Of a stretch of DNA of 64,000 nucleotides, positions 32,574-51,041 are shown in pieces (positions within the stretch are counted from its first letter, which is position 1; every line of letters begins with the position of its first letter). The notes under the pieces are model-generated. The model had not been told where the DNA came from, did not search any database, and worked only from the letters and a program-made list of their open reading frames with translations. Origin of the DNA: Thiocapsa marina 5811 (lineage in GTDB: Bacteria; Pseudomonadota; Gammaproteobacteria; Chromatiales; Chromatiaceae); contig NZ_AFWV01000006.1 in the NCBI RefSeq assembly GCF_000223985.1, forward strand, positions 124,001 through 188,000, given 5' to 3'. Both the position numbers and the translations under genes were made by a program.

Positions 32574-32579
32574 ACCGGG

Positions 32580-34827: not shown

Positions 34828-34957
34828 GGGTGCTCGGGGTGATCGGCGTCGTCACGACGTACTGCACCGAAGACGCCGGAGCCGCCGGTGATGCGGCGTC
34901 TCGGCATACCTTCGGCGCAGCCTGTCCCGATGGGGGTGTCGGCCCGGAGATCGGTGC

Positions 34958-35644
34958 ATGATCGGTGATCCGTGGCAGCGCCAACGTCTTCTCGACACCT
35001 TCCCGTTTCTGCACGAGACACCGGAGGCGTTCCGCGCCGAGCTGTTCGCTCGGGTCACCTTGGTCCGGCTGCCGGTCGGTCAGCTGATCTGTCACGACGG
35101 CGACCAATGCACGCAGCTCCCCTTGGTCCTGACCGGAACCGGTCGTGTCTACAAGCTCGGTGAAAACGGTCGGGAGATCACCCTGTATCGCGTTCATCCG
35201 GGCGAGAGCTGCGTGGTCACCACCTCCTGCATCCTCAGCGGGCGGGCCTTTCCGGCCTTCGCCGTGTGCGAGAGCGCGGTGGAGGCGGTCGTCGTGCGAC
35301 CGGCCGAGGTCCGCCGCTGGATGGCCACGTCGGAGCGGTGGCGTGAATACGTCTTCGGCTTGATCGCGGGACGCTTGCAGGAGGTCTTCGGCGTCCTCGA
35401 TGCGGTGCTCTTCCAGCGGTTGGATCAACGCCTGATCGTCTATCTCCTGGGCCTGAGCGAAACCGGCTCGGAGCGAGAGATCCACATGACGCATCAGGCC
35501 CTCGCGGTAGAGCTCGGATCCTCGCGCGAGGTCATCAGCCGGGTTCTCAAAGGCTTGGAGTCGCAGGGACTGCTGCGCACGACACGCGGCGTCATCGAGC
35601 TGCTGGACATTCCGGCGCTCGAGCTGCGGGCACGGGAGGTCTGA
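34958..35644 (+). CDS. Crp/Fnr-family transcriptional regulator
   Basis: The 228-residue regulator has an N-terminal cyclic-nucleotide-binding-type beta-roll (LVLTGTGRVYKLGENGREITLYRVHPGESCVVTTSCIL) and a C-terminal winged helix with ALAVELGSSREVISRVLKGLESQGLL. There is no FNR-type N-terminal cysteine cluster, though several cysteines (ICHDGDQC, SCVVTTSC) could be redox-active. It follows the cofactor cluster by 130 bp on the same strand and precedes a DUF2892 gene whose upstream region has a palindrome that it might bind. Confidence 0.88.
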   Translation: MIGDPWQRQRLLDTFPFLHETPEAFRAELFARVTLVRLPVGQLICHDGDQCTQLPLVLTGTGRVYKLGENGREITLYRVHPGESCVVTTSCILSGRAFPAFAVCESAVEAVVVRPAEVRRWMATSERWREYVFGLIAGRLQEVFGVLDAVLFQRLDQRLIVYLLGLSETGSEREIHMTHQALAVELGSSREVISRVLKGLESQGLLRTTRGVIELLDIPALELRAREV

Positions 35645-36359: not shown

Positions 36360-38246
36360 ATGCGGATCGCTGCACTCTTCGCTCTTTTGTTCATTTCCCC
36401 CGCGCTGCCGGCCCAAGATCGCGGCGAGCCCTACCGGGTGCTCGTGTTGCATTCGCACGGAAGCAGCCTGCCCGCGAACACGGACTGGCACAACGGTATC
36501 CTGCGGGGATTTGCCTCGGCGCCTGACATGCAAGTCCAAATCGATGTCGAAGCGCCTGATCTGACGCGCGTCGACGACGCAGACTACGTCGTTGAGCTGC
36601 GCCGCAGCTATGCCCTTAAGTATCGCGACTACCGGCCTGATCTGGTCATCGCAACCTACACGCCGGCATTCCTGTTTCTGTTGAAAGACGGAGAGGAGCT
36701 GTTTTCTGGTGTGCCGATCGTGTTCTGCGACGCGGATGGCCGCATCGTGGGCGCGCACAAACTGCCGGAGACCATGACCGGCGTCACTTTCAATGCCGAC
36801 ATCGCAGGCACGCTGGAATTGGCATTGGCGCTGCATCCCGACACCGAGCGGGTGGCCGTAATCGTCGGGACCGGTGCGTATGGCCAATGGTACGAGCGCC
36901 TTGCAGAACAGGCATTTCAATCACTGAAGACCCGCCCTGACCTTGTCTGGTTGAAGGGTCTGCCGTTGAACGAGCTCTTGGAGGCGGTCAGTCGGCTGCC
37001 GGCCCGAACGGTGATCCTCTACCTGGTTCAATATCAGGACCGAGCCGGCAATGCCTACACGCCGCATAGCATCCTTCGCGATGTCGTCGATGTGGCCAGC
37101 GTGCCAACCTATGGCCTCTGGGATACCCTGATCGGTACCGGTATCGTCGGCGGTCGCATGATTACTCTGGAGGACGACGGATTTCGCGCGGCACAGATGG
37201 GCGTGCGCATCCTTCGGGGCGAAGCGCCGCACGCGATACCTGTGGTCAACCGGCTGCACAACCCGGCGATCTTCGACGCCCCGGCGCTTGCGCGTTGGCG
37301 GATCGACGACGACCGATTGCCCGCGGGCAGCCGCATCCGCAACCGCCAACCCTCGCTGCTGCAGGAACATCCGGGCGCGATCGCTACCGGGGCCCTCGTC
37401 ATCGCCTTGCAGGGGATGCTGATCGCGGCCTTGTTCGTGAATTGGAGACGCTTGCAGCGAACCGAGCGCGCACTGCGCGACGAGAACGCCCGGCGCAAGC
37501 AGACCATGAGCGACATGATCGCACTGCGCGCAACACTCGCCCGATACGGCAAGCAGCGCAGCCTCGGCGCGATGGCCACGGCCATTGCTCATGAGATCAA
37601 TCAGCCGCTGATCGCGATCCAGAACTACGCCCAGGCGGCGAAACGGCGCCTGGGCAGCGGCAACGATCAAACCTCCAAGCTGCAAGCCTTGTTCGAGAAG
37701 ATCGAGGGCCAAGCGACGCGGGCGGGTGACATCACCCACAAGGTGCGGGCATTCATCAGTACCAAGCAGGTCGCCCTGGAACCGCTGCCGCTCTGCGCGA
37801 CCTTGCAAGAGGCGGTCGGGATGATGGAGCTGGAGACCGAGCGGCGTGGCTGCCTCATCGACTGCACGTCCGCCGGAGAGCTCCCCGCCGTCCTTGCCGA
37901 CGGCCTTCAGGTCCAATTGGTGTTGGTCAACCTGCTGCAGAACGCGATTCAGTCGGTCTGCGGTGACGAAGCGAGCGATCGCCGTGTGCGCGTCCACGCC
38001 GAAAGGATCGACGGCGACGTCCAGGTCTGCGTCTCGGACCGGGGACCCGGGGTACCATCGGCGCAGGTCGAGGCCATCTTCGAACCGCTGCATTCCACTA
38101 AGAGCGGCGGCATGGGCATGGGCCTGTCGATTTGCCAAGAGATCATTGAAGCCCACGGCGGACGACTTTGGTACGAGCCCAACCCCGCTGGCGGTGCGAT
38201 GTTCTGCTTTACGCTGCGCGTAGCGAGCCATGACAACAACAGCTAA
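36360..38246 (+). CDS. Sensor histidine kinase with periplasmic ABC-substrate-binding-like domain
   Basis: The 628-residue protein starts with a signal/anchor (RIAALFALLFISPALPAQ). A ~300-residue periplasmic domain resembling ABC sugar/solute-binding proteins follows (RVLVLHSHGSSLPANTDWHNGILRGF, DLVIATYTPAFLFLL). Then come one membrane helix (~339-361), a HisKA domain with phospho-accepting His411 (AIAHEINQPL) and an HATPase with NLLQNAIQSV, DRGPGVP and GGMGMGLSICQEI. It is expected to sense a periplasmic ligand directly. The 3' end overlaps the response-regulator gene by 17 bp, defining its partner. The ATG at 36360 was chosen for the signal sequence. Confidence 0.92.
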   Translation: MRIAALFALLFISPALPAQDRGEPYRVLVLHSHGSSLPANTDWHNGILRGFASAPDMQVQIDVEAPDLTRVDDADYVVELRRSYALKYRDYRPDLVIATYTPAFLFLLKDGEELFSGVPIVFCDADGRIVGAHKLPETMTGVTFNADIAGTLELALALHPDTERVAVIVGTGAYGQWYERLAEQAFQSLKTRPDLVWLKGLPLNELLEAVSRLPARTVILYLVQYQDRAGNAYTPHSILRDVVDVASVPTYGLWDTLIGTGIVGGRMITLEDDGFRAAQMGVRILRGEAPHAIPVVNRLHNPAIFDAPALARWRIDDDRLPAGSRIRNRQPSLLQEHPGAIATGALVIALQGMLIAALFVNWRRLQRTERALRDENARRKQTMSDMIALRATLARYGKQRSLGAMATAIAHEINQPLIAIQNYAQAAKRRLGSGNDQTSKLQALFEKIEGQATRAGDITHKVRAFISTKQVALEPLPLCATLQEAVGMMELETERRGCLIDCTSAGELPAVLADGLQVQLVLVNLLQNAIQSVCGDEASDRRVRVHAERIDGDVQVCVSDRGPGVPSAQVEAIFEPLHSTKSGGMGMGLSICQEIIEAHGGRLWYEPNPAGGAMFCFTLRVASHDNNS

Positions 38247-38850
38247 GCAAACGGTGTTCATCGTCGATGACGACGATGCGGTGCGCGACTCCATACAGGA
38301 ATTGCTCGAGTCCGTCGGTCTGCGCGCCGAGGGCCATGCCTCCGGTCAGGCGTTCCTGAACGCATTCGAGCCGGAACGCCCGGGATGCCTGATCCTCGAT
38401 GTGCGGATGGCGGGCATCAGCGGTCTGGCGGTGCAAGAACGACTCAACGCGCTGGGTACGACCCTGCCGATCATCATGCTCACCGCCCATGGCGACGTCC
38501 CCATAGCGGTCCAGGCCATGCAGGCCGGGGCCGTCGATTTCCTGCAGAAGCCCTACCGGGACCAGGCCTTGTTGGATAGCGTCAATCGGGCGTTGGGGCT
38601 GGACCTTGGCGCGCGACGATCAGGCACCGGGGACGGCGATCTCGCCCAGGGTCTCAGCTTGTTGACGCAGCGCGAACGCGAGGTGTTCGACTACTTGCTC
38701 AAGGGCGGCACCAGCAAAGAGATCGCCCGCGAACTGGATGTCAGCCATCGCACTATCGAGGCCCATCGCCAGAATCTGCTGCGAAAGCTGGGCGTGAGCT
38801 CCGTCAAGGAGTTGCTTGCGTTGGCGCTGGCGTCGCGGCGGGAACGCTAG
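38230..38850 (+). CDS. FixJ/NarL-type response regulator
   Basis: The 206-residue protein has a receiver domain (acidic pocket IVDDDDAVRD, phospho-acceptor Asp57 in LILDVRM, conserved Lys in FLQKPYRD) and a LuxR-type helix-turn-helix (LTQREREVFDYLLKGGTSKEIARELDVSHRTIEAHRQNLLRKLG). Its start overlaps the kinase 3' end. It likely controls neighbouring genes; two identical TACGTACGTA palindromes lie upstream of the next two genes and are candidate sites. Confidence 0.94.
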   Translation: MTTTAKQTVFIVDDDDAVRDSIQELLESVGLRAEGHASGQAFLNAFEPERPGCLILDVRMAGISGLAVQERLNALGTTLPIIMLTAHGDVPIAVQAMQAGAVDFLQKPYRDQALLDSVNRALGLDLGARRSGTGDGDLAQGLSLLTQREREVFDYLLKGGTSKEIARELDVSHRTIEAHRQNLLRKLGVSSVKELLALALASRRER

Positions 38851-39274
38851 GCGGACAGAGCGCGCGCAAACCTGGTTTCGTGCCCTGAACCGATCCGCAC
38901 GGGTTCGCTCAGCGCGTTGTCCGTGGCTGTTTCTCCCGGTGACTACGTACGTAGGACGCGTAGTCAATCGTATGTCCCTACTGCCTACGCTCCTCTATCG
39001 TCAACCCAGACAAGAATTCCGAGCGCGGTGCTGCCAACGCGGTAAGGCCGGCCTGCCAATCAAAAAGCGCGCTATTGGCGAAGGGTTGTTTCATCGCCGC
39101 TGCAGGAGTGATCTAGACCCGTCGCAGATGGGTTTTCGGGAAAGCGAGGTGCGTCCCTCGTGCCCGAGAGCAAGGCACACCGACGAGTCATAGCCGCCCT
39201 ATGGCGAGGAGGTGTAACGCAGCTATCGGGTGCGAGGGGCGTGCATCGCGGCCGAAAATTCATTTGTGACGGGT
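38851..39274. other. Intergenic region with palindromic TACGTACGTA site
   Basis: About 420 bp, noticeably less GC-biased than the flanking genes and with no supported gene. The main feature is the palindrome at 38941-38965. The region presumably contains the promoter of the orphan receiver gene. Confidence 0.4.
38941..38965. promoter_or_regulatory. Nested palindrome with TACGTACGTA core, site 1
   Basis: CTACGTACGTAG (38943-38954) is a perfect 12-bp palindrome nested in a longer inverted repeat GACTACG...CGTAGTC (38941-38947 / 38959-38965). The same TACGTACGTA decamer recurs at 39651-39660. Both lie within 350 bp upstream of genes next to the FixJ-type regulator, so they are candidate operators. 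Confidence 0.5.
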
Positions 39275-39661
39275 ATGAGCCCCATGCCAACAGTGACGGT
39301 GTCTGTGGTCAGCGCTGACCCCGCCATGCGCGCCTATCTCGCTGATTTGCTGCGCTCCGCGAGCCTGCGCAGCAAGGCGTTCACCGATCTGCAGGCTTGC
39401 CTCGATCATGTCGGCTCAGACCGGATCGGCTGTCTGCTTGTCGATATGCCGGCCAATGATTCCGGTGGCTCCGAGCCGAGCCAGCTCGCCGCCGCCTGCG
39501 TCCGAATGCCGACGCTGGTCATCGTCGATCGCGGCGACGTCCCGCAGGCAGTCAGCGCCTTGAAGGCCGGCGGGTTGGTCATCCTGGAGAGGCCGGTCAC
39601 ACGCGCCGACCTGTTGGCTGGCATCCGAAGGGCAGGGTCCGACGAGCGGTTACGTACGTAG
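39275..39661 (+). CDS. Orphan degenerate receiver-domain protein
   Basis: The 128-residue stand-alone receiver is related to FixJ-type regulators: VSVVSADPAMRAYLADLLRSASL, GCLLVDMPAND, and alternation of strands and helices to the end. The phospho-acceptor position is Asp57, but the acidic pair at strand 1 is reduced to S-A-D and the conserved lysine is Arg (ILERPVTRADLL). Phosphorylation is therefore doubtful. There is no output domain. It could sequester or modulate the kinase/regulator pair upstream. Starts at 39284 or 39230 are also possible. Confidence 0.7.
   Translation: MSPMPTVTVSVVSADPAMRAYLADLLRSASLRSKAFTDLQACLDHVGSDRIGCLLVDMPANDSGGSEPSQLAAACVRMPTLVIVDRGDVPQAVSALKAGGLVILERPVTRADLLAGIRRAGSDERLRT
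39651..39660. promoter_or_regulatory. TACGTACGTA palindrome, site 2
   Basis: A perfect 10-bp palindrome, identical to the core of site 1, overlaps the last codons of the orphan receiver gene and lies ~195 bp upstream of the LysM-sulfatase start. It is a candidate binding site for the adjacent FixJ/NarL-type regulator. Confidence 0.45.
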
Positions 39662-39854
39662 TCTAGGTGGAACGGCCAATGGGAATGTCGGCAGGCGTGG
39701 GGTCAAATCACTTCGCGCCGGGGTCGTCGCAACGGCTGTATGCCACGGTGTCAGTGGCAGCGATCCCGCAATCGAAGACGTACCGCGAACCGATGCCCGT
39801 ACCGCGTTTGAAGGCGGAACAATCAGCTTTATCAGTGAATTGGAGCATACTGCG

Positions 39855-41816
39855 ATGATTGAAAATCCTGAGCCAACGGCGCGTCTGCGCGCCAAGGTTC
39901 TTGCCGCAACAGTGGCCGCTATGTTGTTTGGCGCTAGCGTGGCTGTGGCGGCAGAAACCGACCCCATCGCCGGCGCCAGAGGCGACTACGACGCTGCCGC
40001 AGGCACGTACACCGTCGGCGCGGGCGATAACCTCAGCGCCATCGCAAAGCGCTTCGGCACGAGCGTCGGCGAGCTGGAGACGGCCAACGACTTGCGCTCC
40101 GACGACCTCGCCGTGGGCCAAGAGCTGAAGGTGGCTGCCGCGGACGCAGGGGACCGCGACAGCCAAGCAAGCACCGCCGAAGCGACCGGTGACAAGCCCA
40201 ACATCTTGTTCATCATGGGCGATGACATCGGCATCATGAACGTGGGTGCCTACCATCAGGGGCTCATGGTCGGCGAGACGCCCAACCTCGACCGCATCGC
40301 GAATGAAGGTGCGCGGTTCATGACCTACTACGCCGAGCAGAGCTGCACGGCAGGTCGCACCGCCTTCTTCACCGGCATGCATCCGCTGCGCGCCGGCATG
40401 GTCATGCCGCAGCTTCCGGGCGCCACCAGCTCGCTGTTGCCGGGCACGCCCGCGCTTGCCAAGTTCCTGCTGGATCTCGGCTACAACACCGGCGAGTTCG
40501 GCAAGAACCATCTCGGCGACAAATCGGCCTCGCTGCCCACGGCACATGGCTTCCAGGAGTTCTGGGGCTACCTGTACCACCTCGACGCCATGCAGGGGGT
40601 GAGCTTCCCGGATATCAACAGCACCTCGACCGATCAGACCGTTGTTCCGCCCTGTAAGAACACCCCGGTCAAGGGTCTGGCAGAGGTTCCCGGTGCCGTG
40701 GACCCGAAGACCGCGCTCTGCATGACCCCGCCGCGGCCGGTCATCCACTGTACGTCTTCGGACGGCACCGAAGAGAACCAGAGCTGCAAGGACGAAGGGC
40801 CGCTGACGCTGGAACGTTCCAAGACCGTGGACGAGGAGATCTCCGCCCAGCTCATCGACTTCCTCGAGCGCAACGACCCCGAGAAGACCGGCAAGCCGTT
40901 CTTCGTCTGGTACAACCCGGCGCGCATGCACGTCACGACCATGCTCTCGGAAAAGTATGAGGACATGCTGGGCCAGAAGGGCGGCAAGGACTGGGGCATC
41001 AACGAAGCCGGCATGAAGCAGATGGACGACAACATCGGCTACGTGCTGAAAAAGCTCGAAGACATGGGCGAGCTCGACAACACCATCGTCGTCTTCACCA
41101 CCGACAACGGCGCCGAGACGATCACCTACCCGGACGGCGGTGTCACGCCCTTCAGAGGCGGCAAGCTCACCACCTGGGAAGGCGGCATGCGGGCGCCGAT
41201 GCTCGTGCGCTGGCCGGGACACGTCGAGGCCGGATCGAATCCGGACCAGATCTTCTCGTCGCTGGACTGGGTGCCCACCTTCGTCAATATCGCCGGGGGG
41301 CCTTCGGGCGATGGGCTGAAGAAGCAGATCGAGGCCGGCGAGTATCCCGGCATCGTCAAGACCACGCTGGACGGCTTCGACCAGCGCGATTACCTCGAAG
41401 GCAAGTCGGATTCGGCACGCGACACCTTCTTCTACTACACCGGTAAAGATCCTTCGGCGGTGCGCTACAAGAACTGGAAGTTCTACTACACGATGATCTC
41501 GTCCAATGCGACGGAAGCGTTCGACCCCCCAACCACCTATCACTGGACCTATGTCAGCAACCTCAAGCGTGATCCCTTCGAGCGCTCGGTCGCGTCGGTT
41601 GATGGGACCCTCTTGGGCTACGGCGGCGCCTTGGCTGCTCCAAGCACGGCGTACATCTATGACTGGAACCTGCTGCCTATCGGACAGCTGCTATGGCTGA
41701 AGGAGCTCGAGACCTACCGGGACTTCCCCTCGCTGCAGATGCCGGCGAGCTACAACCTGGATCAAGTGATCGAGGCGATGCAGTCAGCGAAACACATCAG
41801 CCACGCGGGTGAGTAA
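39855..41816 (+). CDS. LysM-sulfatase fusion (arylsulfatase-type alkaline phosphatase superfamily)
   Basis: The 653-residue exported protein has a signal peptide (ending VAVAAE, ~33) and a LysM domain (~50-93, TYTVGAGDNLSAIAKRFGTSVGELETAND). A type I sulfatase domain follows: metal-binding NILFIMGDDIG (Asp123-Asp124), formylglycine site Cys164 in CTAGR, GKNHLGD, and the distal TTDNGAE. The Cys must be oxidised by a formylglycine-generating enzyme, none of which is encoded here. LysM usually binds peptidoglycan, so the enzyme is probably wall-tethered. GGAG lies nine bases before the ATG. Substrate unknown; phosphonate-ester hydrolase activity cannot be excluded. Confidence 0.9.
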   Translation: MIENPEPTARLRAKVLAATVAAMLFGASVAVAAETDPIAGARGDYDAAAGTYTVGAGDNLSAIAKRFGTSVGELETANDLRSDDLAVGQELKVAAADAGDRDSQASTAEATGDKPNILFIMGDDIGIMNVGAYHQGLMVGETPNLDRIANEGARFMTYYAEQSCTAGRTAFFTGMHPLRAGMVMPQLPGATSSLLPGTPALAKFLLDLGYNTGEFGKNHLGDKSASLPTAHGFQEFWGYLYHLDAMQGVSFPDINSTSTDQTVVPPCKNTPVKGLAEVPGAVDPKTALCMTPPRPVIHCTSSDGTEENQSCKDEGPLTLERSKTVDEEISAQLIDFLERNDPEKTGKPFFVWYNPARMHVTTMLSEKYEDMLGQKGGKDWGINEAGMKQMDDNIGYVLKKLEDMGELDNTIVVFTTDNGAETITYPDGGVTPFRGGKLTTWEGGMRAPMLVRWPGHVEAGSNPDQIFSSLDWVPTFVNIAGGPSGDGLKKQIEAGEYPGIVKTTLDGFDQRDYLEGKSDSARDTFFYYTGKDPSAVRYKNWKFYYTMISSNATEAFDPPTTYHWTYVSNLKRDPFERSVASVDGTLLGYGGALAAPSTAYIYDWNLLPIGQLLWLKELETYRDFPSLQMPASYNLDQVIEAMQSAKHISHAGE

Positions 41817-41845
41817 CGGCGCGAAGCGTCGCTGATGTGATGGAC

Positions 41846-41869
41846 CGGGCGGCCCGCACGGGCCGCCCG
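41846..41869 (+). terminator. GC-rich hairpin downstream of the LysM-sulfatase gene
   Basis: A perfect 10-bp stem CGGGCGGCCC / GGGCCGCCCG with a GCAC tetraloop lies 30 bp after the sulfatase stop. No T-run follows, so it may protect the 3' end or act with Rho rather than terminate on its own. Confidence 0.5.
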
Positions 41870-41889
41870 CATCATCGGGAGGAAATCCT

Positions 41890-41975
41890 GTGGGCTGGGT
41901 TGAGCTTGCGAGACCCGGCCCTTTTCTTGTTTGCAATACCGCCGTTGCCGGGTTTCGTACCTCAACCCAGCCTAC
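41890..41975. repeat. 86-bp palindromic repeat (GGCTGGGTTGAGC type), copy 1
   Basis: The element begins GTGGGCTGGGTTGAGCTTGC and ends GGTTTCGTACCTCAACCCAG plus CCTAC, so the ends are inverted repeats. It matches a second 86-bp element at 49763-49848 at about 71 of 86 positions by eye. Both copies lie just downstream of the two sulfatase genes. Confidence 0.85.
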
Positions 41976-42052
41976 ACCGACGACGGCATCTTCCGGAATG
42001 GGCGTGTTTTTTGACCCATGATGGCTGCATGCGATACAGAAGGTATCCACTC

Positions 42053-43369
42053 ATGAAGACCCCCTCAATCCTGAGGCAACCCTTCACCACGCGGTTTCAG
42101 GCCGCCTGCTCGGTACTGGCGCTCACCGCCTGTCTGGCCTTCGGCAGCGCCCAGGCCGCCGACCAGGGGGCTCGCCACCACGCCAAGGGCGAATACGACA
42201 CCGTTACCGCCATCTATGAGGTGGTCGAGGGTGATGAGCTGATTGTGATCGGCGAACGCTTCGAGGTTCCGCTGGACAGCCTGAAGGCAGAAAACGACCT
42301 CAGCTCGGACGTCATCAAGCCTGGTCAGAAGCTGACCATCACGACGGGCGCGCCGACCGTCTCAGCCCCTGTAACAGCCCCTTTATCAGCTCAGGAAAAA
42401 CAACCGGCGCTCGCAGCCGCTGAACCGCTGTCCTCTTGGAACGACGGGCCGGCTAAGCAGGCGATTATGGCCTTCGTGAAGGAGACCACGACGGAGGGAA
42501 GCCCGCAGTTCGTGCCGCCGGCAGAGCGCATCGCGACCTTTGACCAGGACGGCACACTGTGGGTCGAGCACCCCATGTACAGCCAGGTCGTCTACTGCCT
42601 GGACCGGGTTCCGGCGGTGGTCAAGGCAAAACCTGAGCTGGCGCAGGTGGAGCCTTTCAAGACCGTGCTGTTCGGCGACCGTGAGGCCATCGCCAAACTC
42701 TCCACAGACGACCTGTTCAAGATCCTCGCCGCCACGCTGACCGGCATGGATGTCGATGAGTTCAAGGCCGAGGCGGAGAAGTGGCTCGCAACCGCCAAGA
42801 ACGCGCGCTGGGATCGGCCCTACACGGATCTCACCTACCTGCCGATGCAGGAGGTGCTGGAGTACCTGCGCGCCAACGGCTACAAGACCTACATCGTCAC
42901 CGGCGGCGGTCAGGACTTCGTTCGGGTGTATTCCGCGCCCGTTTACGGGATCCCGCCGGAGCAGGTGGTCGGCAGCGCCGGGGAGACCAAGTACGGCTAT
43001 CGCAAGGATGGCCAGCCGTTTCTCACCAAGGAACCGAAACTGCTCCTGGACAACAACGATGCCGGCAAGCCCGAGGGCATCCATCTGATGATCGGGCGTC
43101 GGCCCCATGCCGCCTTCGGAAACTCGACCGGCGACCGTCAGATGCTGGAATACACCAAGGCCGGTGACGGCGCGAGGTTGTCGATGATTCTGCTGCACGA
43201 CGACGCCGAGCGCGAGTACGCGTACGGACCGGCGCAGGGGCTGCCCGACACCCGAGTCGGCACCTTCACCCAGGCGCTGTACGACGAGGCACAGAAGCAG
43301 GGCTGGATCGTGATCAGCATGAAGACCGACTGGAATCGGATTTTTGCGTTCGACGAAAGTCAGAACTGA
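42053..43369 (+). CDS. LysM-HAD phosphatase fusion
   Basis: The 438-residue exported protein has a signal peptide (ending SAQAAD, ~37) and a LysM domain (~54-97, IYEVVEGDELIVIGERFEVPLDSLKAEND). A spacer leads to a HAD-superfamily hydrolase with motif I TFDQDGTLW (Asp164, Asp166), motif II YIVTGGG and motif IV FGNSTGDRQM. It resembles secreted phosphatases of the phosphoserine/phosphocholine type; the substrate is unknown. It shares with the upstream sulfatase the unusual N-terminal LysM. I use the ATG at 42053, preceded by GAAGG; an ATG eight codons upstream is possible. Confidence 0.88.
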   Translation: MKTPSILRQPFTTRFQAACSVLALTACLAFGSAQAADQGARHHAKGEYDTVTAIYEVVEGDELIVIGERFEVPLDSLKAENDLSSDVIKPGQKLTITTGAPTVSAPVTAPLSAQEKQPALAAAEPLSSWNDGPAKQAIMAFVKETTTEGSPQFVPPAERIATFDQDGTLWVEHPMYSQVVYCLDRVPAVVKAKPELAQVEPFKTVLFGDREAIAKLSTDDLFKILAATLTGMDVDEFKAEAEKWLATAKNARWDRPYTDLTYLPMQEVLEYLRANGYKTYIVTGGGQDFVRVYSAPVYGIPPEQVVGSAGETKYGYRKDGQPFLTKEPKLLLDNNDAGKPEGIHLMIGRRPHAAFGNSTGDRQMLEYTKAGDGARLSMILLHDDAEREYAYGPAQGLPDTRVGTFTQALYDEAQKQGWIVISMKTDWNRIFAFDESQN

Positions 43370-43454
43370 GCAGGCCGGCTCCGTCGTTCCTTACGAACAA
43401 TGCCCGACTCCTTCTTGCCGAGGCACCCATTGCCTCTACCCGAAGACTGAACTC

Positions 43455-43739
43455 ATGAACAAATCATTCAATCCATGGCGTTCGCTGGTCTGGGCTTTGG
43501 CCATCACATGGCTGGGATGCGCGCCCGCGATGGCCGAAATGAGCGCAACGGAGCTCGCCAAGCTCGCTCAGAACCCGGTCGGCAATCTCATCAGCGTGCC
43601 GTTTCAGAACAACACCAATCTGAACTATGGGCCGGAACGGGGCACGCAGAACATCCTCAATATCCAGCCGGTGATCCCGATCTCGATCAACAAAGTTTCC
43701 CAAATAGGTACTCGACGGCTTGGAGGTGGGCACGATTAG
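43455..43739 (+). pseudogene. Truncated outer-membrane transporter remnant
   Basis: The frame starts with a good signal peptide (RSLVWALAITWLGCAPAMAE). The N-terminal sequence typical of a family of ~300-residue barrel 'transporter' proteins follows (LAKLAQNPVGNLISVPFQNN, NYGPERGTQNILNIQPVIPIS). After about 80 residues it switches abruptly to unrelated residues and stops at 94. The rest of the barrel is not found in any frame downstream before the next gene. I read it as a deletion-truncated pseudogene; expression of a short secreted peptide cannot be excluded. Confidence 0.7.
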
Positions 43740-43881
43740 AAAGATCTGAATCCAAATTCATCCCGTAGCCACCGGGATGCCGGAACAACGCGTTCTTCAA
43801 GCGAGAAGACGAATGGGTGGGTCCTTGACCTACACGGCAGTCTTCAACCGATTCAATAACCTTTGAGCAAAGAGTAAAACA

Positions 43882-44334
43882 ATGTTGTATTCCTATTCCA
43901 AAATGATCGGCGCGGTTGCCATGACCGCCATGATGCTTTTCGGCAGTCTGGCCGTCGCCGAGGACGCCAAACAGCCCGCTGGCACGATCACCATTCAAGA
44001 AAAAGAGCTCGGATTCATCCTTGGCGGCAGCAAGGGCAGCGGGACCTTGACATTCCAGGGCGAAGAGTACCCATTCAAGCTCAGGGGAATCAGTGTCGGG
44101 GCCAATGTCGGCATCTCCAAAATGAGTGCCTCCGGCGAGGTCTACGATCTAACCAGCGTTTCGGATTTCCCGGGAACCTTCACCAAGCTCGACGCCGGCG
44201 TCGCCTTGGGCGGTGGCATGGGCGGACTGCGCTTGAAGAACCAGAATGGCGTGATCTTGGTGCTGCGCTCACGCACCCAGGGCGTCGATCTCAATCTCGG
44301 AAGCATGAGCGGAATGACTGTCACGATGGAGTAG
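43882..44334 (+). CDS. Small secreted glycine-rich beta protein, unknown
   Basis: The 150-residue protein has a signal peptide (MTAMMLFGSLAVAED) and a glycine-rich, beta-predicted mature part (ELGFILGGSKGSGTLTFQGEEYPFKLRG, DFPGTFTKLDAGVALGGGMGG). Similar proteins may exist as conserved hypotheticals, but I cannot name the family. It resembles no cysteine-containing or enzymatic motif. Position suggests it belongs to the sulfatase/HAD envelope block. Confidence 0.65.
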   Translation: MLYSYSKMIGAVAMTAMMLFGSLAVAEDAKQPAGTITIQEKELGFILGGSKGSGTLTFQGEEYPFKLRGISVGANVGISKMSASGEVYDLTSVSDFPGTFTKLDAGVALGGGMGGLRLKNQNGVILVLRSRTQGVDLNLGSMSGMTVTME

Positions 44335-44371
44335 TGACCGCTCCCCGCAAGCTGTCTTCCATCTGACTGTC

Positions 44372-44424
44372 TGCCGCTTGCCCGTCCACGCATGCAACCG
44401 GGGAATGCAATCGGGCAAGCGGCA
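44372..44424 (+). terminator. Long inverted repeat between two secreted-protein genes
   Basis: A perfect 13-bp inverted repeat, TGCCGCTTGCCCG (44372-44384) and CGGGCAAGCGGCA (44412-44424), encloses a 27-base loop that itself contains a small GCAT/ATGC stem. It lies in the 116-bp gap before the SYLF-like gene. A short TCGTTT follows, so it may be a partial terminator or an mRNA-stability hairpin. Confidence 0.55.
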
Positions 44425-44450
44425 TCGTTTGAACCGTGCGAGGAGAACCG

Positions 44451-45284
44451 ATGCCCGATCACCTGTCCGCCGGCCGGCGCCCCGCCACCCGCCCGTTGCC
44501 GACAATGTTGTCTGCCACCCGGAGCCTGGCCCCGGTTGTGATCTTGGCCTTGGGCCTCGGCGCGCTCGGTGCGACCGCTGAGGCGCGCGCCGATTCACTG
44601 TTCGGCGACCTCAAGGCTAAGGCCGCCGCCGCTGCGCAGAAGGCGGGCGAGGCGGCCGGCGATGCGGCGCACAAAGCCGGCACGGTCGCTGGCGATGTCG
44701 CGCACAAGGCCGGGGAGATCGGCGCCAAAGCGGTGGAGCACGTCGAAGCCACCACCGAGGAGGCCGTGCAGGATCTCAGCGACGGCGACACCCCGGACGG
44801 CACCCGCGCCAAGCTGGACCTGATGGCGGCACAAACGCTGGACCGGCTGCTTACCGAACGCCCCGACGTGGCGCCGCTGCTGGCGGCCAGCGACGGCTAT
44901 GCCGTGTTCGACACCCGCCAGATGCAGCTCGGGCTCGCGGGCGGCTACGGGCGCGGCGTCGCGGTGGAGAGCGACTCGGGCGCGCGCACCTACATGCGTA
45001 TGGGCAGTGCGGGCGTCGGTATCGGGTATGGCTTCGGCGGTTTCGATACCCAGCTCGTAATCCTGCTGCAGACGCCCTTCGCCTATCACAAGTTCGTCAC
45101 CCAGGGGCTCGATGCCACCGCGGAGGCGGGCAGCATGGCGGGTGACGAGCAAGAGCGCCTGGCGCTCGGGTTCGAGGACGGTCGCGCCGTGTTCGTGCTC
45201 ACCAACAAGGGTTGGAAGATCTCCGCCAAGCTCACCGGCACCAAGTACTGGCCGGACGAGGCACTCAATGCACCCAACAGCTAG
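44451..45284 (+). CDS. SYLF/YSC84-domain secreted lipid-binding-type protein
   Basis: The 277-residue protein has a signal peptide (VVILALGLGALGATAEARAD). An amphipathic Ala/Lys-rich helical segment with repeated KAGEAAGDAAHKAG units (~60-110) is followed by a domain resembling SYLF/YSC84: LLAASDGYAVFDTRQMQLGLAGGYGRGVAV, MGSAGVGIGYGFGGFDTQLVILL, GWKISAKLTGTKYW. SYLF domains bind lipids in eukaryotes; bacterial roles are unclear. AGGAG lies six bases before the ATG. The 3' end overlaps the cytochrome gene start by 17 bp, so the two are co-expressed. Confidence 0.75.
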   Translation: MPDHLSAGRRPATRPLPTMLSATRSLAPVVILALGLGALGATAEARADSLFGDLKAKAAAAAQKAGEAAGDAAHKAGTVAGDVAHKAGEIGAKAVEHVEATTEEAVQDLSDGDTPDGTRAKLDLMAAQTLDRLLTERPDVAPLLAASDGYAVFDTRQMQLGLAGGYGRGVAVESDSGARTYMRMGSAGVGIGYGFGGFDTQLVILLQTPFAYHKFVTQGLDATAEAGSMAGDEQERLALGFEDGRAVFVLTNKGWKISAKLTGTKYWPDEALNAPNS

Positions 45285-47631
45285 ACCGACCCGGCGGCAG
45301 ATGCCGCACGTCATCGCGGCAGTCCTGGGCCTCCTGTCGCTGTCCGGTGTGCCGGCGCTCGCGGTCGACGAGGTCGCCGCCGACGGCTATGTCGGCAGCG
45401 CGCGCTGCGGCAGCTGCCACGCCGCCGAGCTCACCGCCTGGCGCGGCTCCCATCACGACCTAGCCATGGCCGAGGCGACGCCGGAGAACGTCCTCGGCGA
45501 CTTCGACGATACCGAATTCACCGCCCACGGCGTCACCACGCGCTTCCACCGTGACGGCGATGAATTCCGGGTGGACACCGACGGCCCGGACGGCAAACCT
45601 GCGAGCTATGCCATCGCCTATACCTTCGGCTGGACGCCGTTGCAGCAATACCTGATCCGCTTCCCCGACGGGCGGCTGCAGGCGTTGGGCATTGCATGGG
45701 ATTCACGCCCGGCGGACCAGGGCGGCCAGCGCTGGTTCCACCTCTACCCGGACGACGCGGACTACGGCCCCGATCACCCGCTGCACTGGACCAACCGCGA
45801 CCAGACCTGGAACTACCAGTGCGCCGAGTGCCACTCCACCGGCCTGCACAAGGGCTACGACCTGAGCACGGACGCCTACACCACCACCTGGGCCGAGATC
45901 GACGTCGCCTGCGAGGCCTGCCACGGCCCCGGCGCCGCGCACACAGCGCAGGCCGAGGCCGCCGCGGCGGGCAATGCCGATGCCTGGGACGCCCACAAGG
46001 GCCTGGCGCCGGACCTCGCCGACCGCGACAACGCCACCTGGGTGCAAGACCCGGAGACCGGCCTGCCGCACCGCGAGCCGGCCCGCGTCAGTCATGCCGA
46101 AGTCAACACCTGCGCCCGTTGCCACGCCCGCCGCGGCCAGCTCCACGTCCCCTACACCCCGGACGCACCGCTGGAGGACACCCATCGGCTGGCCTTGCTC
46201 GGAGATGGCCTCTACTACGCCGACGGGCAGATCCAAGACGAGGTCTTCGTGCACGGCTCCTTCATCCAGAGCCGCATGTTCCACCAGGGCGTCACCTGCA
46301 GCGACTGCCACGACCCGCACTCGCTGCAACTGCGCGCGCCCGGCAACGCCGTCTGCGCCCGCTGTCATGCACCCGCGCGCTATGACAGCGCCGAGCACCA
46401 TCATCACCCGATGACCGCTGCCTCCGGCGCCAAGGGCAGCGGCACCGCCTGCGTCGACTGCCACATGCCCGAGCGCAACTACATGGTCATCGACGCGCGC
46501 GCCGACCACAGCCTGCGCGTCCCGCGCCCGGACCTCGCCGCGGCCCTGGGCACCCCCGACGCCTGCACCGGCTGCCACACCGAGCTGACCCCGGCACAGG
46601 CGGCGGCGCAGGTGCAGACCTGGTACGGCACACCGAAGCGCCCGGCGCACTTCGCCACCGCGCTGCACGCCGGCCGCAGCGGAGCACCGGGCGCCGCGGC
46701 AAAGCTCGCCGAGCTGGCCGTGGATACCGAGGCGCCCATGATCGCCCGGGCGACGGCTCTCGACCTGCTCGCCGAGCTGTCACAGCCCGTTGATCCTGCC
46801 CTATTGCAAGCACTCGCCGAGTCCGATTCCCCGCTGCTGCGCTCCGCCGTCGCCGGCGCCCTGGAGCGCCTGCCGCCGCAGGACGCGCTGAGCATGGGGC
46901 TTGATCTGCTGAACGACCCGACGCGCCTGGTGCGTGTCGACACGGCACGCTCGCTGGCCGCCTTCGCGCGGCTGGAGGCAAACGTCCCCGGCCGCGAGTC
47001 CCCGCTGCGCAAGGCCCTCGCACCGGCGCTGGCGGAGTACCGCGAGTCCCAGCTCACCAGCGCCGAGCGCCCCGAGTCTTGGCTCAACCTCGGCGTGCTC
47101 GACAGCCTGCTGGGCGATTCCGATGCCGCGGAGCGCGACTACCGCCAGGCACTGGCGCTCGACCCCGAATTCACCCCGACCTACGCGAACCTTGCGGACC
47201 TGTACCGCGCCCTCGGTCGCGACGCCGACGGTCGCGCCGTGCTGGAACAAGGGCTGGAACAGGCAGCGGACGACGCCGACCTGCTGCACGCCCTCGGCCT
47301 GTTGGAGATCCGCACCAAGCACCTTCCCGCCGCGGTGGACCTGCTTGGCCGCGCCGCCGAGCAGGCCCCGGATCAGTCGCGCTACGCCTATGTCCACGCC
47401 TTGGCGCAGGAAGCCGCCGGCGACCCGCGCGCGGCCATCGCCACCCTCACGGCGGCCACCGACCGCCACCCCAACGACGCCGACATCGCGCTCGCGCTGG
47501 TGAGCCTCAACGCCAAGGCCGGTGACCGGGACGCCACCATCGCCTGGGCGGAGCGTTACCTCGCCCGCTTCCCGGACCCGTCGGGGCAGGTCGGCGCGTT
47601 GCTGGCGCAGCTCAGGGGCGGTGCGGAGTAG
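45268..47631 (+). CDS. Octaheme c-type cytochrome with C-terminal HEAT/TPR region
   Basis: The 787-residue periplasmic protein has a signal sequence (VIAAVLGLLSLSGVPALA) and eight CxxCH haem-binding motifs with first cysteines at about residues 47, 185, 215, 282, 344, 363, 395 and 433. An all-helical half follows, with HEAT-like (LLRSAVAGALERLPPQDALSMG) and TPR repeats (PESWLNLGVLDSLLGDSDAAERDYRQALALDPEF). It resembles the cytochrome c554/multihaem family fused to TPRs. It needs the c-type cytochrome maturation system, not in this window. The start at 45268 overlaps the SYLF gene; an ATG at 45301 is an alternative. Electron donor and acceptor are unknown. Confidence 0.9.
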   Translation: MHPTARPTRRQMPHVIAAVLGLLSLSGVPALAVDEVAADGYVGSARCGSCHAAELTAWRGSHHDLAMAEATPENVLGDFDDTEFTAHGVTTRFHRDGDEFRVDTDGPDGKPASYAIAYTFGWTPLQQYLIRFPDGRLQALGIAWDSRPADQGGQRWFHLYPDDADYGPDHPLHWTNRDQTWNYQCAECHSTGLHKGYDLSTDAYTTTWAEIDVACEACHGPGAAHTAQAEAAAAGNADAWDAHKGLAPDLADRDNATWVQDPETGLPHREPARVSHAEVNTCARCHARRGQLHVPYTPDAPLEDTHRLALLGDGLYYADGQIQDEVFVHGSFIQSRMFHQGVTCSDCHDPHSLQLRAPGNAVCARCHAPARYDSAEHHHHPMTAASGAKGSGTACVDCHMPERNYMVIDARADHSLRVPRPDLAAALGTPDACTGCHTELTPAQAAAQVQTWYGTPKRPAHFATALHAGRSGAPGAAAKLAELAVDTEAPMIARATALDLLAELSQPVDPALLQALAESDSPLLRSAVAGALERLPPQDALSMGLDLLNDPTRLVRVDTARSLAAFARLEANVPGRESPLRKALAPALAEYRESQLTSAERPESWLNLGVLDSLLGDSDAAERDYRQALALDPEFTPTYANLADLYRALGRDADGRAVLEQGLEQAADDADLLHALGLLEIRTKHLPAAVDLLGRAAEQAPDQSRYAYVHALAQEAAGDPRAAIATLTAATDRHPNDADIALALVSLNAKAGDRDATIAWAERYLARFPDPSGQVGALLAQLRGGAE

Positions 47632-48010
47632 CGTTCTTAGGAACGGTTCACTAATAACCTGCACAACTCTATCTATTGGTGGGCGGAGCGCAATCGGGGT
47701 CGCTATCGGAATCGGAATCGGAAAGGCACTGCTCGATCGTATTGTGGCCAAGCTGACGAAGCTCGGACAGCGTCGCTACGCGGTCCGCGAGGAGCTTGGC
47801 GAATACCGGAGCAGTCAGTTCGATACCATACCGATACCGATACCGATACCGATACCGATACCGATACCGATACCGATACCGATTAGATGGCTAGCGACAC
47901 CCAAGTCGATAAGCTGTTTAACTTAATTCTTGCAACCTTACTCAGCGGCCGCCACCAATTCCCACGGCGGCTCCGTAATCACCTGCTCGTATCGTGAACT
48001 AGGAGAAATG
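47632..48010. other. Intergenic region with hexamer repeats before the second sulfatase
   Basis: About 380 bp between the cytochrome and the second sulfatase. It is less GC-rich than the flanking genes, and I see no supported gene. It contains a short ATCGGA array (47705-47721) and, 110 bp later, the reverse-complement-like CCGATA array. The end carries the AGGAGAA ribosome site of the sulfatase. Confidence 0.5.
47831..47884. repeat. CCGATA hexamer tandem array
   Basis: Eight perfect CCGATA units (47831-47878) are followed by one CCGATT. Degenerate units precede it (47821-47830). Upstream at 47705-47721 lies ATCGGAATCGGAATCGG, close to the reverse complement, so the two arrays could pair. 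It is a simple-sequence repeat likely to vary in length by slippage. Confidence 0.95.
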
Positions 48011-49633
48011 ATGAGGAAGACCCTGCTGAAACTCGTTCCACTGATGGCGTTGTCGGCCTGGATGCCCGGCGCAATGGCGGCCGCCGAAAGGCCCAACATC
48101 CTCGTTATCTTCGGCGACGATATCGGCATGTGGAATGTCGGCGCCTATACCCACGGCATGATGGGCCACACGCCGAACATCGACCGCATCGCCAAAGAGG
48201 GCATGCTGTTTACCGACCACTACGCGCACCCAAGCTGCACCGCCGGACGGGCCGCGTTTATCACTGGGCAACTGCCGGTGCGCACCGGCATGACGACCAT
48301 CGGCATCCCCGGCTCGAAGCAGGGCCTGCAGAAGGAAGACCCGACACTGGCCGAGGTCCTCAAACCCCTTGGCTATGCGACCGGGCAGTTCGGCAAGAAC
48401 CACCTGGGCGACCGCAACGAGTTCCTGCCGACCGTGCACGGGTTTGACGAGTTCTACGGCAACCTCTATCACCTCAACGCCGAGGAAGAGCCCGAGCAGC
48501 TCGACTACCCGGGGGTGAAGAATCCCGAGTTCAAAGAGAAGTTTGGCCCGCGCGGCGTCCTGCATTGCTGGGCGACGGACACCGACGACCCCACCGATGA
48601 CCCCAAGTTCGGCCCCATGGGCAAGCAGCGCTGCGAGGACACCGGTGCGCTCACGCGCGAGCGCATGAAGACCGTGGACGGCGAGTTCCTGAAGGCGGCC
48701 GAGACCTTCATCGAGAGCAGCGTCAAGGAAGACAAGCCATTCTTCGTCTGGTTCAACCCCACCCGGATGCACATCTGGACCCATGTACCCACGGAGTACA
48801 TGCAGAAGGCCGTCGACGAGGGACGCCCCGAGAACGATGTCTACCGCGCCGGCATGATCCAGCACGACGAAGAAATTGGCCAGTTGCTGAAGACGCTCGA
48901 CGACCTGGGGGTTGCCGACAACACCATCGTGATCTACTCGACGGATAACGGCTACGAGCTGATGTTTTGGCCGGACGGCGGCTACTCGCCCTTCCGGGGC
49001 GAGAAGGGCACGACCTGGGAAGGTGGCGTGCGGGTGCCGATGATGGTCCGCTGGCCCGGCAAGATCCCTTCGGGGAGCGTCTCGAACGCCATCCAGAGCC
49101 ATGAAGACCTGTTCGTCACGCTGGCCGCGGCCGCGGGCGAGCCGGACCTCAAGGACAAGCTGCTCCAGGGCGCGGAGATGGGCGGCATGACCTACAAGGT
49201 GCACCTGGACGGCTACGACAATCTCGATCTATGGACCGGCAAGACGGACACATCCGGCCGTAAGGACTACTTCTATTACGACGAGGCGACCCTCACCGGC
49301 GTGCGCGTGGGCGATTGGAAGATGCTGTTCGGGGTCAAGGAGAATGGGCTGTGGTGGGACCCGATCGTTTATCCGTCGGCGCCCTATCTCTTCAACCTGC
49401 GCATGGACCCCATGGAGCGCTTCGACCCCCTTTCCCACGAATGGGGCTATATCGGCCGCAAGTTCTTAGCCCAGAAGATGTGGACCCTGGTGCCGGCACA
49501 AGGGATTCTCGCCGAGCACATGCAGAGCTTGCAGGAATGGCCGCCGCGCCAACGGGCCGAGTCGCTGAGCCTGCAGAAGGCGACGGAGGCGGTGATGCGG
49601 CAGCTCGAGAACAACCCCGGCCAGGTCTGGTAA
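48011..49633 (+). CDS. Sulfatase (arylsulfatase type), second copy, no LysM
   Basis: The 540-residue exported sulfatase has a signal peptide (ending GAMAAAE, ~25), metal site NILVIFGDDIG, formylglycine Cys76 in CTAGR, GKNHLGDRNEFLPTVHGFDEF, and the distal YSTDNGYE. It is a paralogue of the LysM-sulfatase: the shared 'CTAGR…TG…R(A/T)GM' and 'GKNHLGD' stretches are nearly identical, but this copy lacks LysM and would be freely periplasmic. Two ATGs are adjacent (48008, 48011); AGGAG spacing favours 48011. It needs a formylglycine-generating enzyme from elsewhere. Confidence 0.9.
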   Translation: MRKTLLKLVPLMALSAWMPGAMAAAERPNILVIFGDDIGMWNVGAYTHGMMGHTPNIDRIAKEGMLFTDHYAHPSCTAGRAAFITGQLPVRTGMTTIGIPGSKQGLQKEDPTLAEVLKPLGYATGQFGKNHLGDRNEFLPTVHGFDEFYGNLYHLNAEEEPEQLDYPGVKNPEFKEKFGPRGVLHCWATDTDDPTDDPKFGPMGKQRCEDTGALTRERMKTVDGEFLKAAETFIESSVKEDKPFFVWFNPTRMHIWTHVPTEYMQKAVDEGRPENDVYRAGMIQHDEEIGQLLKTLDDLGVADNTIVIYSTDNGYELMFWPDGGYSPFRGEKGTTWEGGVRVPMMVRWPGKIPSGSVSNAIQSHEDLFVTLAAAAGEPDLKDKLLQGAEMGGMTYKVHLDGYDNLDLWTGKTDTSGRKDYFYYDEATLTGVRVGDWKMLFGVKENGLWWDPIVYPSAPYLFNLRMDPMERFDPLSHEWGYIGRKFLAQKMWTLVPAQGILAEHMQSLQEWPPRQRAESLSLQKATEAVMRQLENNPGQVW

Positions 49634-49762
49634 ACCGATCCCAGCGGGTCCGATTGCCGGCGGGGAGTCCGGCAGTCGGGCCGGGATCATGTGTTTGCGG
49701 CACCTCGTTCAAGCGAGCGCAACCCGATCCGGGCAGGGCTCTGCCGGGCGCTTGAGCAGTTC

Positions 49763-49848
49763 GTAGGCTGGGTTGAGCTTGCGAAACCCAGCATTTCCGG
49801 GGCTTACGATACCGCCGATGCTGGGTTTCGTACCTCAACCCAGCCTAC
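49763..49848. repeat. 86-bp palindromic repeat (GGCTGGGTTGAGC type), copy 2
   Basis: The element begins GTAGGCTGGGTTGAGCTTGC and ends with CTCAACCCAGCCTAC, the reverse complement of its start. It is the same length as copy 1 at 41890-41975 and lies 130 bp after the second sulfatase and ~100 bp before the AraC gene. Confidence 0.88.
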
Positions 49849-49949
49849 GAGCGATCTTGCACACGCGATCTGCGCTCCGGCTTCGGCGCCGAAAGAGTTC
49901 CTGATACTGCCACCGTCATTTGAGTCCCCGTGATTATCGATCTGCGGGG

Positions 49950-51041
49950 ATGGCCCCCGTTCGTGCTCATCACGGAGACAGCGACCTGAATATCCCCGTC
50001 GTACGCGCGCAGCATCTGATCGACTATATCGGAGTCCTCCGAGACCTTGGTGTGCCGGTCGAGCGCGAGTTGGAGCGCTCGCGACTCCCTGTTGCGATTG
50101 AGGAAACGCCCAACGACTACGTCAGCCTGCCACGCGCCCTCGACTGGCTTTGGAGGTCGAGGCGTGAGTTTGGGGTCATGGAGCTTGGCTTCCTCGCGGG
50201 CCGCGCGGCTTCGCTTCGTTCGCTCCATCCCGATGTACAACGTGCAGTGACGCGGGCTTCTACTGGACTTTCCCGCATCACGGTCCTGTCCGACCGGGTG
50301 CACCAGGAGAGCAACGCCGTCAGGATCGGCATCCGCCGTGAAGGCATCGATCGACGCGTGGTTTGCGAAATACAGGGCTTTCGCAACAGTCCCCTTGTCG
50401 GGTTCGCCGAGTGGAAGGCGATCGCGGGAATCATCGGCGTGATGCGCAGTGCGGCAGGACCCGATTGGTGTCCGACCGAGATCACCTTCGTCTCGCGCGA
50501 GCGGCCCTCGGGGGCCGCGCTGGAGGCCTACGGCAAACCCCGCATCCTGACCGGTCAGCGGTACTGTTCGGTACTCGTCGCGGCGGCAGATCTTGCGCGG
50601 ACCTGCATCGACCGCCGGTCAAGCTCCGATGGCGCCAAGGATCCGACGACTCCCTCGCGACCACCATCCGGCTTGAGCGACGCCTGGGACTTCCTGACCG
50701 GCCTGCGCGCGCTCATCCGTCCCTATCTCGCGCAGGGTCATCCGCCCCTGTCGTTGGCGGCCGAGATCGTTGGTATGAGCGAGCGCAGCTTGCAGCGTCG
50801 GCTGGCGCAACGCCGGACGACCTATTCCGCAATTGTCCAAGAGGCGCGTTTCTTGATCGCATCGGACCTGATGGCTGATTCCGACCTGAACATCGCCGAC
50901 ATCGCTTTTGCAGCAGGCTACGAGAACGCGTCGCATTTTTGCAGGGCATTCAAGCGGCTCACCGGCATGACGCCTCGCGACTACCGCTGCGCCGCGTGGA
51001 ATAGAGTCACGGACGGTGTTGGTCATAAGACCGCCCGGTAG
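49950..51041 (+). CDS. AraC-family regulator with Arabinose_bd/OruR-type N-terminus
   Basis: The 363-residue regulator has an N-terminal domain like the OruR/ArgR group (HLIDYIGVLRDLGVPVERELERSRLP, then ALDWLWRSRREFGVMELGFLAG). A C-terminal pair of helix-turn-helix motifs ends in SLAAEIVGMSERSLQRRL and IADIAFAAGYENASHFCRAFKRLTGMTPRDYR. It probably responds to a small ligand and may control the sulfatase block upstream; this is inference. The frame extends to 49920 with PRDYR-like residues, but I start at the ATG at 49950. Its TAG stop is inside a palindromic repeat. Confidence 0.88.
   Translation: MAPVRAHHGDSDLNIPVVRAQHLIDYIGVLRDLGVPVERELERSRLPVAIEETPNDYVSLPRALDWLWRSRREFGVMELGFLAGRAASLRSLHPDVQRAVTRASTGLSRITVLSDRVHQESNAVRIGIRREGIDRRVVCEIQGFRNSPLVGFAEWKAIAGIIGVMRSAAGPDWCPTEITFVSRERPSGAALEAYGKPRILTGQRYCSVLVAAADLARTCIDRRSSSDGAKDPTTPSRPPSGLSDAWDFLTGLRALIRPYLAQGHPPLSLAAEIVGMSERSLQRRLAQRRTTYSAIVQEARFLIASDLMADSDLNIADIAFAAGYENASHFCRAFKRLTGMTPRDYRCAAWNRVTDGVGHKTAR

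Follow-up and report, generated by a model that had tools for sequence, protein, structure and literature searches.

Within a window of 64,000 nucleotides from Thiocapsa marina 5811 (the whole stretch of DNA analysed, positions 124,001 to 188,000 of contig NZ_AFWV01000006.1), the region 36360-51041 holds a block of genes that all lie on the + strand, as seen from the list of open reading frames and from Pfam and NCBIfam scans of the window (Table 1). The two S1 proteins of the block are predicted sulfatases, with PF00884 scores of 152 and 182 bits (cut-off 25) and a CTAGR sequence in each that satisfies the motif C-x-[PA]-x-R, and a HAD hydrolase is a predicted phosphatase by motif and family (a DxDGT motif whose D46, D48, G49 and T50 are invariant in eight sequences, and a family match to 4ovy). 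An octaheme c-type cytochrome with HEAT and TPR repeats lies between the HAD gene and the second sulfatase gene, and it is this cytochrome, not wall chemistry, that is the interesting part of the block: with a probability of roughly 0.4, it is a periplasmic sulfatase-maturation factor within an inducible module of exported S1 sulfatases. A sequence-only reading of the same DNA had listed the kinase, FixJ-type regulator, receiver, two sulfatases, LysM-HAD protein, octaheme cytochrome, barrel remnant and AraC regulator on one strand, and all of these were recovered; the EipA-like protein at 43882-44334 had been overlooked. Export of the block proteins was judged by eye from their N-termini.

Table 1. 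Features of the block at 36360-51041 (positions in the window)
Feature	Position	Strand	Basis or remark
Sensor histidine kinase, ABC_sub_bind-like periplasmic sensor	36360..38246	+	HisKA, HATPase_c, weak ABC_sub_bind, 27.1 bits vs cut-off 25.9 (Pfam)
FixJ-type response regulator	38230..38850 (start approximate)	+	Response_reg PF00072 and GerE PF00196; NCBIfam FixJ model best, under cut-off
Stand-alone receiver domain	39230..39661	+	PF00072, 32.9 bits vs cut-off 30.2
LysM-tagged S1 sulfatase (predicted), motif CTAGR	39855..41816	+	Pfam, motif reading
LysM-tagged HAD hydrolase, 4ovy type	42053..43369	+	PF12710 and LysM; 4ovy profile E 1.4e-141
Outer-membrane-barrel-like gene remnant (5' part, internal deletion)	43452..43739	+	91% over 64 aa to L036:15486-16232
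EipA-like exported protein	43882..44334	+	PF06577, 29.1 bits, cut-off 30.8 (just under)
SYLF-like exported protein	44451..45284	+	Weak NCBIfam match
Octaheme c-type cytochrome with HEAT and TPR; candidate sulfatase-maturation factor	45301..47631	+	8 CXXCH; HEAT/TPR by Pfam
CGATAC hexamer array, 10.7 copies	47821..47883	.	Between cytochrome and second sulfatase
Second exported S1 sulfatase (predicted), motif CTAGR, without LysM	48011..49633	+	Pfam, motif reading
AraC-family regulator	49950..51041	+	NCBIfam QhpR model best, under cut-off

A conserved sulfatase-HAD module

The block is a real and widely conserved exported sulfatase module whose sulfatase-HAD core extends beyond the genus. A HAD profile scan of 84,980 species, with one genome per species, led to at least 584 confirmed matches, and in the best 80 of the 584 the partner genes were scored by tblastn at set score limits within fetched flanks. 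An S1 sulfatase was found near the HAD gene in 54 of these best 80 loci; for comparison, the window genome of 5.6 Mb has 10 PF00884 matches, which include two pieces of one gene and, by eye, one LtaS-like protein. The octaheme cytochrome followed in 12 loci, FGE in 11, a related barrel in nine, a DUF1254 protein and the regulator in eight each, and the kinase sensor in seven. In Rhizobium tumorigenes, FGE is encoded immediately before the HAD gene. SYLF, EipA and LysM were rejected as core parts, with one, none and three of the best 80 loci by tblastn; a closer look, in which LysM was found to precede the HAD of Thiorhodococcus mannitoliphagus (L103), raised LysM to four, all of them purple sulfur bacteria (Thiorhodococcus, Thiocapsa, Thiodictyon and Thiocystis). 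The sequence-only reading had taken LysM-tagged sulfatase and HAD, SYLF and octaheme cytochrome as one system, and from this set the pair of sulfatase and HAD is conserved, SYLF is scattered and LysM does not belong to the core.

The whole cluster is nearly syntenic in G004, a genome of the same genus (that of Thiocapsa sp. KS1, G008), where the gene order is preserved, the SYLF gene is missing and additional genes precede each sulfatase. Identities to the window are 94% for the kinase, 97% for the regulator, 70% for the LysM-sulfatase, 92% for the LysM-HAD, 93% for the EipA-like protein, 95% for the cytochrome, 98% for the second sulfatase and 91% over 314 aa for the AraC regulator. Because of this near-synteny and of the recurrence of core pairs across phyla, the arrangement is more than chance. 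In L103, kinase, regulator, sulfatase, barrel, LysM-HAD, cytochrome and second sulfatase follow each other in this order, and its sulfatase is 90% identical to the first one of the window, but without LysM. The LysM N-terminus is an addition, and a paralogous block on another contig of the window genome (L034) with octaheme cytochrome, CTAGR sulfatase, HAD, DUF3300 and DUF2950 has no LysM on either its sulfatase or its HAD. DUF3300 and DUF2950 recur near sulfatase-HAD or FGE genes (L034, L120, L164, L283). Within the genus, a signal peptide and LysM N-terminus was also seen fused to a CTAGR sulfatase, to large CSPTR sulfatases, to HAD, to DUF1254/DUF1214 and to HdeA proteins (L030, L031, L037, L038, L041, L044-L046). 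It looks like a shared wall-anchoring tag that spread through one functional network.

Among the smaller features, the barrel remnant had been recognized as such before, and the intact 248-aa copy in G004 confirms it: 64 residues align, and the window is short by about 570 bp owing to an internal loss. The receiver at 39230-39661 is absent from the gene-caller output, yet a stretch of 387 bp that spans most of it (39280-39666) is shared with G004 at 100% identity; the flanks of this stretch are identical at 96% and 80%. The SYLF-like label fared less well, since the exported protein is present, but Pfam gave no match to it at E ≤ 0.001 and its best NCBIfam SYLF score (32.6 bits vs a cut-off of 200) does not reach the curated model. 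The CGATAC array stops 128 bp ahead of the start of the second sulfatase and may be a phase-variable spacer. Just upstream of the block, at 32202-35644, two MinD/ferredoxin-like ATPases are flanked by two NifX-like proteins and followed by a Crp/Fnr-type regulator (labels by eye).

Octaheme genes beside sulfatases on plasmids

When PLSDB was searched with the octaheme protein, a match was obtained in 146 of 72,556 records, and 15 places, chosen for genus variety, were read (the loci L266 and L279 are nearly identical, and the sulfatase of the unannotated L278 was called from tblastn). A sulfatase lies at most 7 kb from the octaheme gene in 14 of the 15, the exception being Qingshengfaniella. 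The order sulfatase-HAD-octaheme was found in Sinorhizobium medicae, Rhizobium ruizarguesonis, R. beringeri, Ensifer and Rhodobacteraceae SC52, and in Methylosinus and Methylocystis a sulfatase gene lies immediately 5' of the octaheme gene without HAD, with a four-base overlap in Methylosinus. Thus, the co-occurrence of the cytochrome with sulfatases that the sequence-only reading had assumed holds for plasmids, but only for two of 19 octaheme flanks from Gammaproteobacteria. The sulfatase motifs recovered near the plasmid genes were CTAGR, CTPGR, CSPTR and one SSPTR (Aureibacter); therefore, the octaheme protein seems to follow sulfatases in general, not one substrate. On plasmid pAT1 of Aureibacter tunicatorum (L274) a sulfatase (annotated as two overlapping pieces), cytochrome b, a Rieske protein and the octaheme cytochrome are encoded in a row, which suggests an electron exchange of the octaheme protein with the quinone pool.

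Kinase, regulator and single receiver adjoin the sulfatase-HAD-octaheme genes in divergent orientation on plasmids of Rhizobium ruizarguesonis, R. beringeri and Ensifer canadensis; the kinases there are distant matches to that of the window (24-27% over the sensor). From these plasmid loci together with L103 it follows that the two-component set accompanies the module in two classes of Proteobacteria. The claim that the block has its own two-component system thus survives in part: the set is present at these three Rhizobiaceae plasmid loci and, as kinase sensor or regulator, in seven and eight of the best 80 HAD loci, and so accompanies only part of the module.

Maturases in the window genome and across species

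S1 sulfatases require the conversion of an active-site cysteine or serine to formylglycine for full activity, and FGE and anSME are the known formylglycine-making enzymes; in FGE, a cysteine pair of the GSxLCxxxxC type has a role in the enzyme. The eight sulfatases read in the window genome all have cysteine motifs (four CTAGR, two CSPTR, one CTPTR and one CGPSR). A single authentic FGE as query found no match in the window genome at E ≤ 1e-20 and, since one empty query shows nothing, the search was repeated with a profile of 10 sequences and with a reading of the cysteine motif. The best profile match in the window genome had an E of 2.2e-23, whereas authentic FGEs score 3.2e-70 or better. 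No cysteine pair of this type is present in the stretches covering the 27 PF03781 (FGE-domain) matches of the window genome, while four control loci have it; the 27 matches are spread over contigs C24, C25, C31, C42, C43, C57, C58, C59, C61 and C62. A search for anSME (TIGR03942) gave no match in the window genome (E ≤ 0.001), and across all 11 genomes of the genus no match exceeded its cut-off. Canonical FGE and anSME are therefore absent from the window genome at the thresholds used.

FGE, octaheme protein and anSME were then compared across 61 genomes, namely 50 that carry the HAD family outside the genus and all 11 of the window genus. Of the 50, 11 were included because their HAD locus holds the octaheme gene and 11 because it holds FGE, each group being complete, and the other 28 were chosen by hand from the remainder of the 80 loci with a preference for isolates; the 11 of the genus were taken whole, and HAD was seen in the stretches read of four of them (the window genome G000, G001, G004 and G008). 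Across this set, genomes tend to have one of FGE and octaheme protein in place of the other: 19 genomes have FGE only, 31 octaheme only (11 of them from the window genus), seven both and four neither (Fisher p 1e-6), so that 31 of the 35 FGE-less genomes carry the octaheme gene. One genome was counted as having both on account of a fragment with the cysteine pair (G312, L215) and another as lacking the octaheme gene despite a distant match (G309; 29%, E 5e-48), both of which assignments weaken the complementarity. The 50 genomes outside the genus alone gave p 7.5e-5. Among the 28 whose selection did not rest on FGE or the octaheme gene at the locus, the octaheme gene was present in four and missing from nine genomes with FGE, and present in 12 and missing from three genomes without FGE (p 0.02). 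Those 40 of the 50 whose fetched HAD flanks contain a sulfatase were divided into 17 with FGE only, seven with both, 12 with octaheme only and four with neither (p 0.009). The switch also occurs within genera, with FGE but no octaheme gene in Microvirga lupini and M. aerophila and the reverse in M. alba, and with FGE in Hyphomicrobium sp. NDB2Meth4 and the octaheme gene in H. facile. anSME was above its cut-off in four of the 61.

A further association was seen in a sample of 274 Gammaproteobacteria, searched at E ≤ 1e-35 for the window sulfatase type, E ≤ 1e-40 for both octaheme protein and FGE, and E ≤ 1e-60 for anSME, with at most three octaheme, five sulfatase and eight FGE candidates scored per genome. 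The numbers of carriers were 25, 21, 14 and four for sulfatase type, octaheme, FGE and anSME, respectively. The octaheme gene was found in 12 of the 25 genomes with the sulfatase type compared to nine of the 249 others (p 3e-9), and FGE in five of the 25; in the four FGE-bearing Gammaproteobacteria that were read, FGE is encoded close to a sulfatase.

c-type cytochromes work outside the cytoplasm, and for this reason the octaheme protein could serve exported sulfatases only. Export classes were assigned by eye for loci with a recovered motif. By this count, seven of 23 loci from FGE genomes have twin-arginine or unexported sulfatases, compared to none of the 15 loci from genomes without FGE (p 0.03).

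The role of the cytochrome and its relation to known systems

The cytochrome itself has its eight CXXCH motifs at positions 36-422 behind an N-terminus that is hydrophobic by eye, and HEAT and then TPR repeats after the hemes. In a model of the full structure (mean predicted local distance difference test score, pLDDT, 71.7) the TPR part is good and the heme part poor, and a separate N-terminal model was also poor (53.4). The TPR superhelix, as the best-modelled part, resembles peptide- and partner-binding TPR proteins in fold searches. These searches otherwise led chiefly to TPR proteins or to no significant match, and the matches listed include no HAO-like fold, which carries no evidential weight. 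A conserved beta-rich insert between hemes 1 and 2 gave no significant fold match.

What we infer from gene content and distribution is a maturation role, its chemistry and a regulation by the kinase/regulator pair. Sulfatases would leave by Sec while their active-site cysteine (in CTAGR here) is still unmodified, and would be held in the periplasm by the TPR superhelix, where the octaheme part would draw electrons from this cysteine to give formylglycine, the electrons departing via periplasmic carriers; HAD and barrel would process and admit the substrate. Beyond the role as a maturation factor, the octaheme protein may itself be a heme-based periplasmic enzyme that forms formylglycine without FGE or radical SAM chemistry. 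It would act on sulfatases of several subfamilies once Sec has exported them, both in Proteobacteria and, for Bacteroidota, on at least one plasmid; this stronger statement we put forward as a tentative possibility, with the odds leaning against it.

Several observations weigh against a maturation role. Nine of the 25 sulfatase genomes in the Gammaproteobacteria sample have neither octaheme protein, FGE nor anSME at the thresholds used, although the octaheme protein may be undercounted with at most three candidates scored; in one of these nine, G155, a CTAGR sulfatase lacks a signal peptide, a case that lies outside the export count. Conversely, among the 21 octaheme genomes nine do not match the window sulfatase type strongly, and besides the two fetched flanks with a sulfatase only one more has a sulfatase fragment, next to genes for DUF1254 and EipA-like proteins. 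Of the 61 genomes, the four with neither system are all metagenome-assembled and seven have both, and p-values are optimistic because the species are related. Ten of the 50 genomes show no sulfatase near HAD and yet the same complement (two FGE only, eight octaheme only), and therefore the complement may not depend on those sulfatases. At the level of the locus, FGE and octaheme gene occur together in none of the best 80 HAD loci, but this mutual exclusion is not significant (P 0.15). A truncated anSME match (2.2e-44) is present in the genus genome G007, and the plasmid sulfatase of L278 beside the octaheme gene has a twin-arginine-like start. Finally, the poorly modelled heme domain yields no active site, and that eight hemes oxidise a peptide cysteine is something we infer and nothing more.

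Some of these points would also be expected if lifestyle or lineage were the common cause, with FGE and octaheme bacteria living in different habitats, both retaining sulfatases, and the cytochrome serving respiration or something else. The window genus and several other octaheme carriers are indeed purple bacteria, the flanks fetched around octaheme genes of the Gammaproteobacteria sample mostly lack a sulfatase, and the complement persists in the ten genomes just mentioned. We nevertheless consider this unlikely in view of the switches inside Microvirga and Hyphomicrobium, the adjacency seen on Rhizobium, Methylosinus, Pseudoalteromonas and Vibrio plasmids, and the small number of anSME genomes (four of 61). 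Alternatively, the octaheme-TPR protein could be a periplasmic partner or chaperone of exported sulfatases, acting in folding, docking or redox protection of the cysteine, with formylglycine coming from another enzyme. The partner-binding look of the TPR superhelix and the closeness to sulfatases on plasmids would fit, but the near-complementarity with FGE is best explained by a shared function and less well by a chaperone-like role, so that we regard it as unlikely. Very improbable is the proposal of the sequence-only reading that sulfate and phosphate esters are removed by the block at the wall while electrons flow through the cytochrome, the phosphate-ester part of which follows from the HAD family: it accounts for an exported sulfatase, HAD and cytochrome in one block, but LysM is not core, and because ester hydrolysis is redox-neutral, freeing no electrons, and other genomes have FGE in place of the cytochrome, it was set aside, 'coupled to electron transfer' being probably the wrong reading of a cytochrome whose near-complementarity to FGE points to maturation instead. 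Just as improbable is the idea that a diverged protein with the FGE domain but no cysteine pair matures the window sulfatases, as FGE-type domains occur outside sulfatase maturation too and none of the stretches covering the 27 PF03781 matches that might suggest it has the pair.

A maturation role of the octaheme protein would matter for a genus whose Cys-type sulfatases come without FGE or anSME above threshold, a gap in distribution much of which is filled by this protein. Its distribution suggests a third bacterial route to sulfatase activation, and the question of maturation is now directly testable. If true, orphan sulfatases would be explained, c-type multiheme proteins would be extended to protein modification, and a tool for aldehyde tags made after export would be at hand.

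Compared with known systems, the kinase with its substrate-binding-like sensor and the FixJ-type regulator resemble TtrSR and FixLJ, with window scores under the curated cut-offs, and the HAD belongs to the family of 4ovy (profile E 1.4e-141), with LysM as an additional tag in the window copy. Titles and beginnings of abstracts in the literature covered, a scope outside of which subscription papers and preprints fell, gave no link of a multiheme or octaheme TPR protein to sulfatases, and in the excerpts of PMC5573963, PMC6646835 and PMC12285233 the multiheme and sulfatase terms are unrelated to each other. An excerpt of PMC6189696 calls the sulfatase-maturation machinery of E. coli elusive and cites Benjdia 2007 for a third maturation system there, which is alike in being maturation without a known enzyme; the octaheme protein is not claimed to be that system.

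Profile matches over the heme-binding stretches connect the octaheme protein, with its eight CXXCH, to the multiheme chains 6i5b (E 2.3e-15) and 6qvm ('multiheme cytochrome cf', E 1.1e-9), most other matches being TPR proteins; unlike these two, it has a HEAT/TPR tail and the beta-rich insert between hemes 1 and 2. Multiheme enzymes as such are familiar from HAO, ONR, OTR and MccA. anSME, a radical SAM enzyme that oxidises cysteine or serine without O2, is unrelated to the octaheme protein. FGE (SUMF1-type, PF03781) is likewise an unrelated protein without CXXCH, and bacterial FGE is cytosolic and dependent on O2 and copper, but in other bacteria it is part of this sulfatase-HAD module, next to CTAGR or CTPGR sulfatases.

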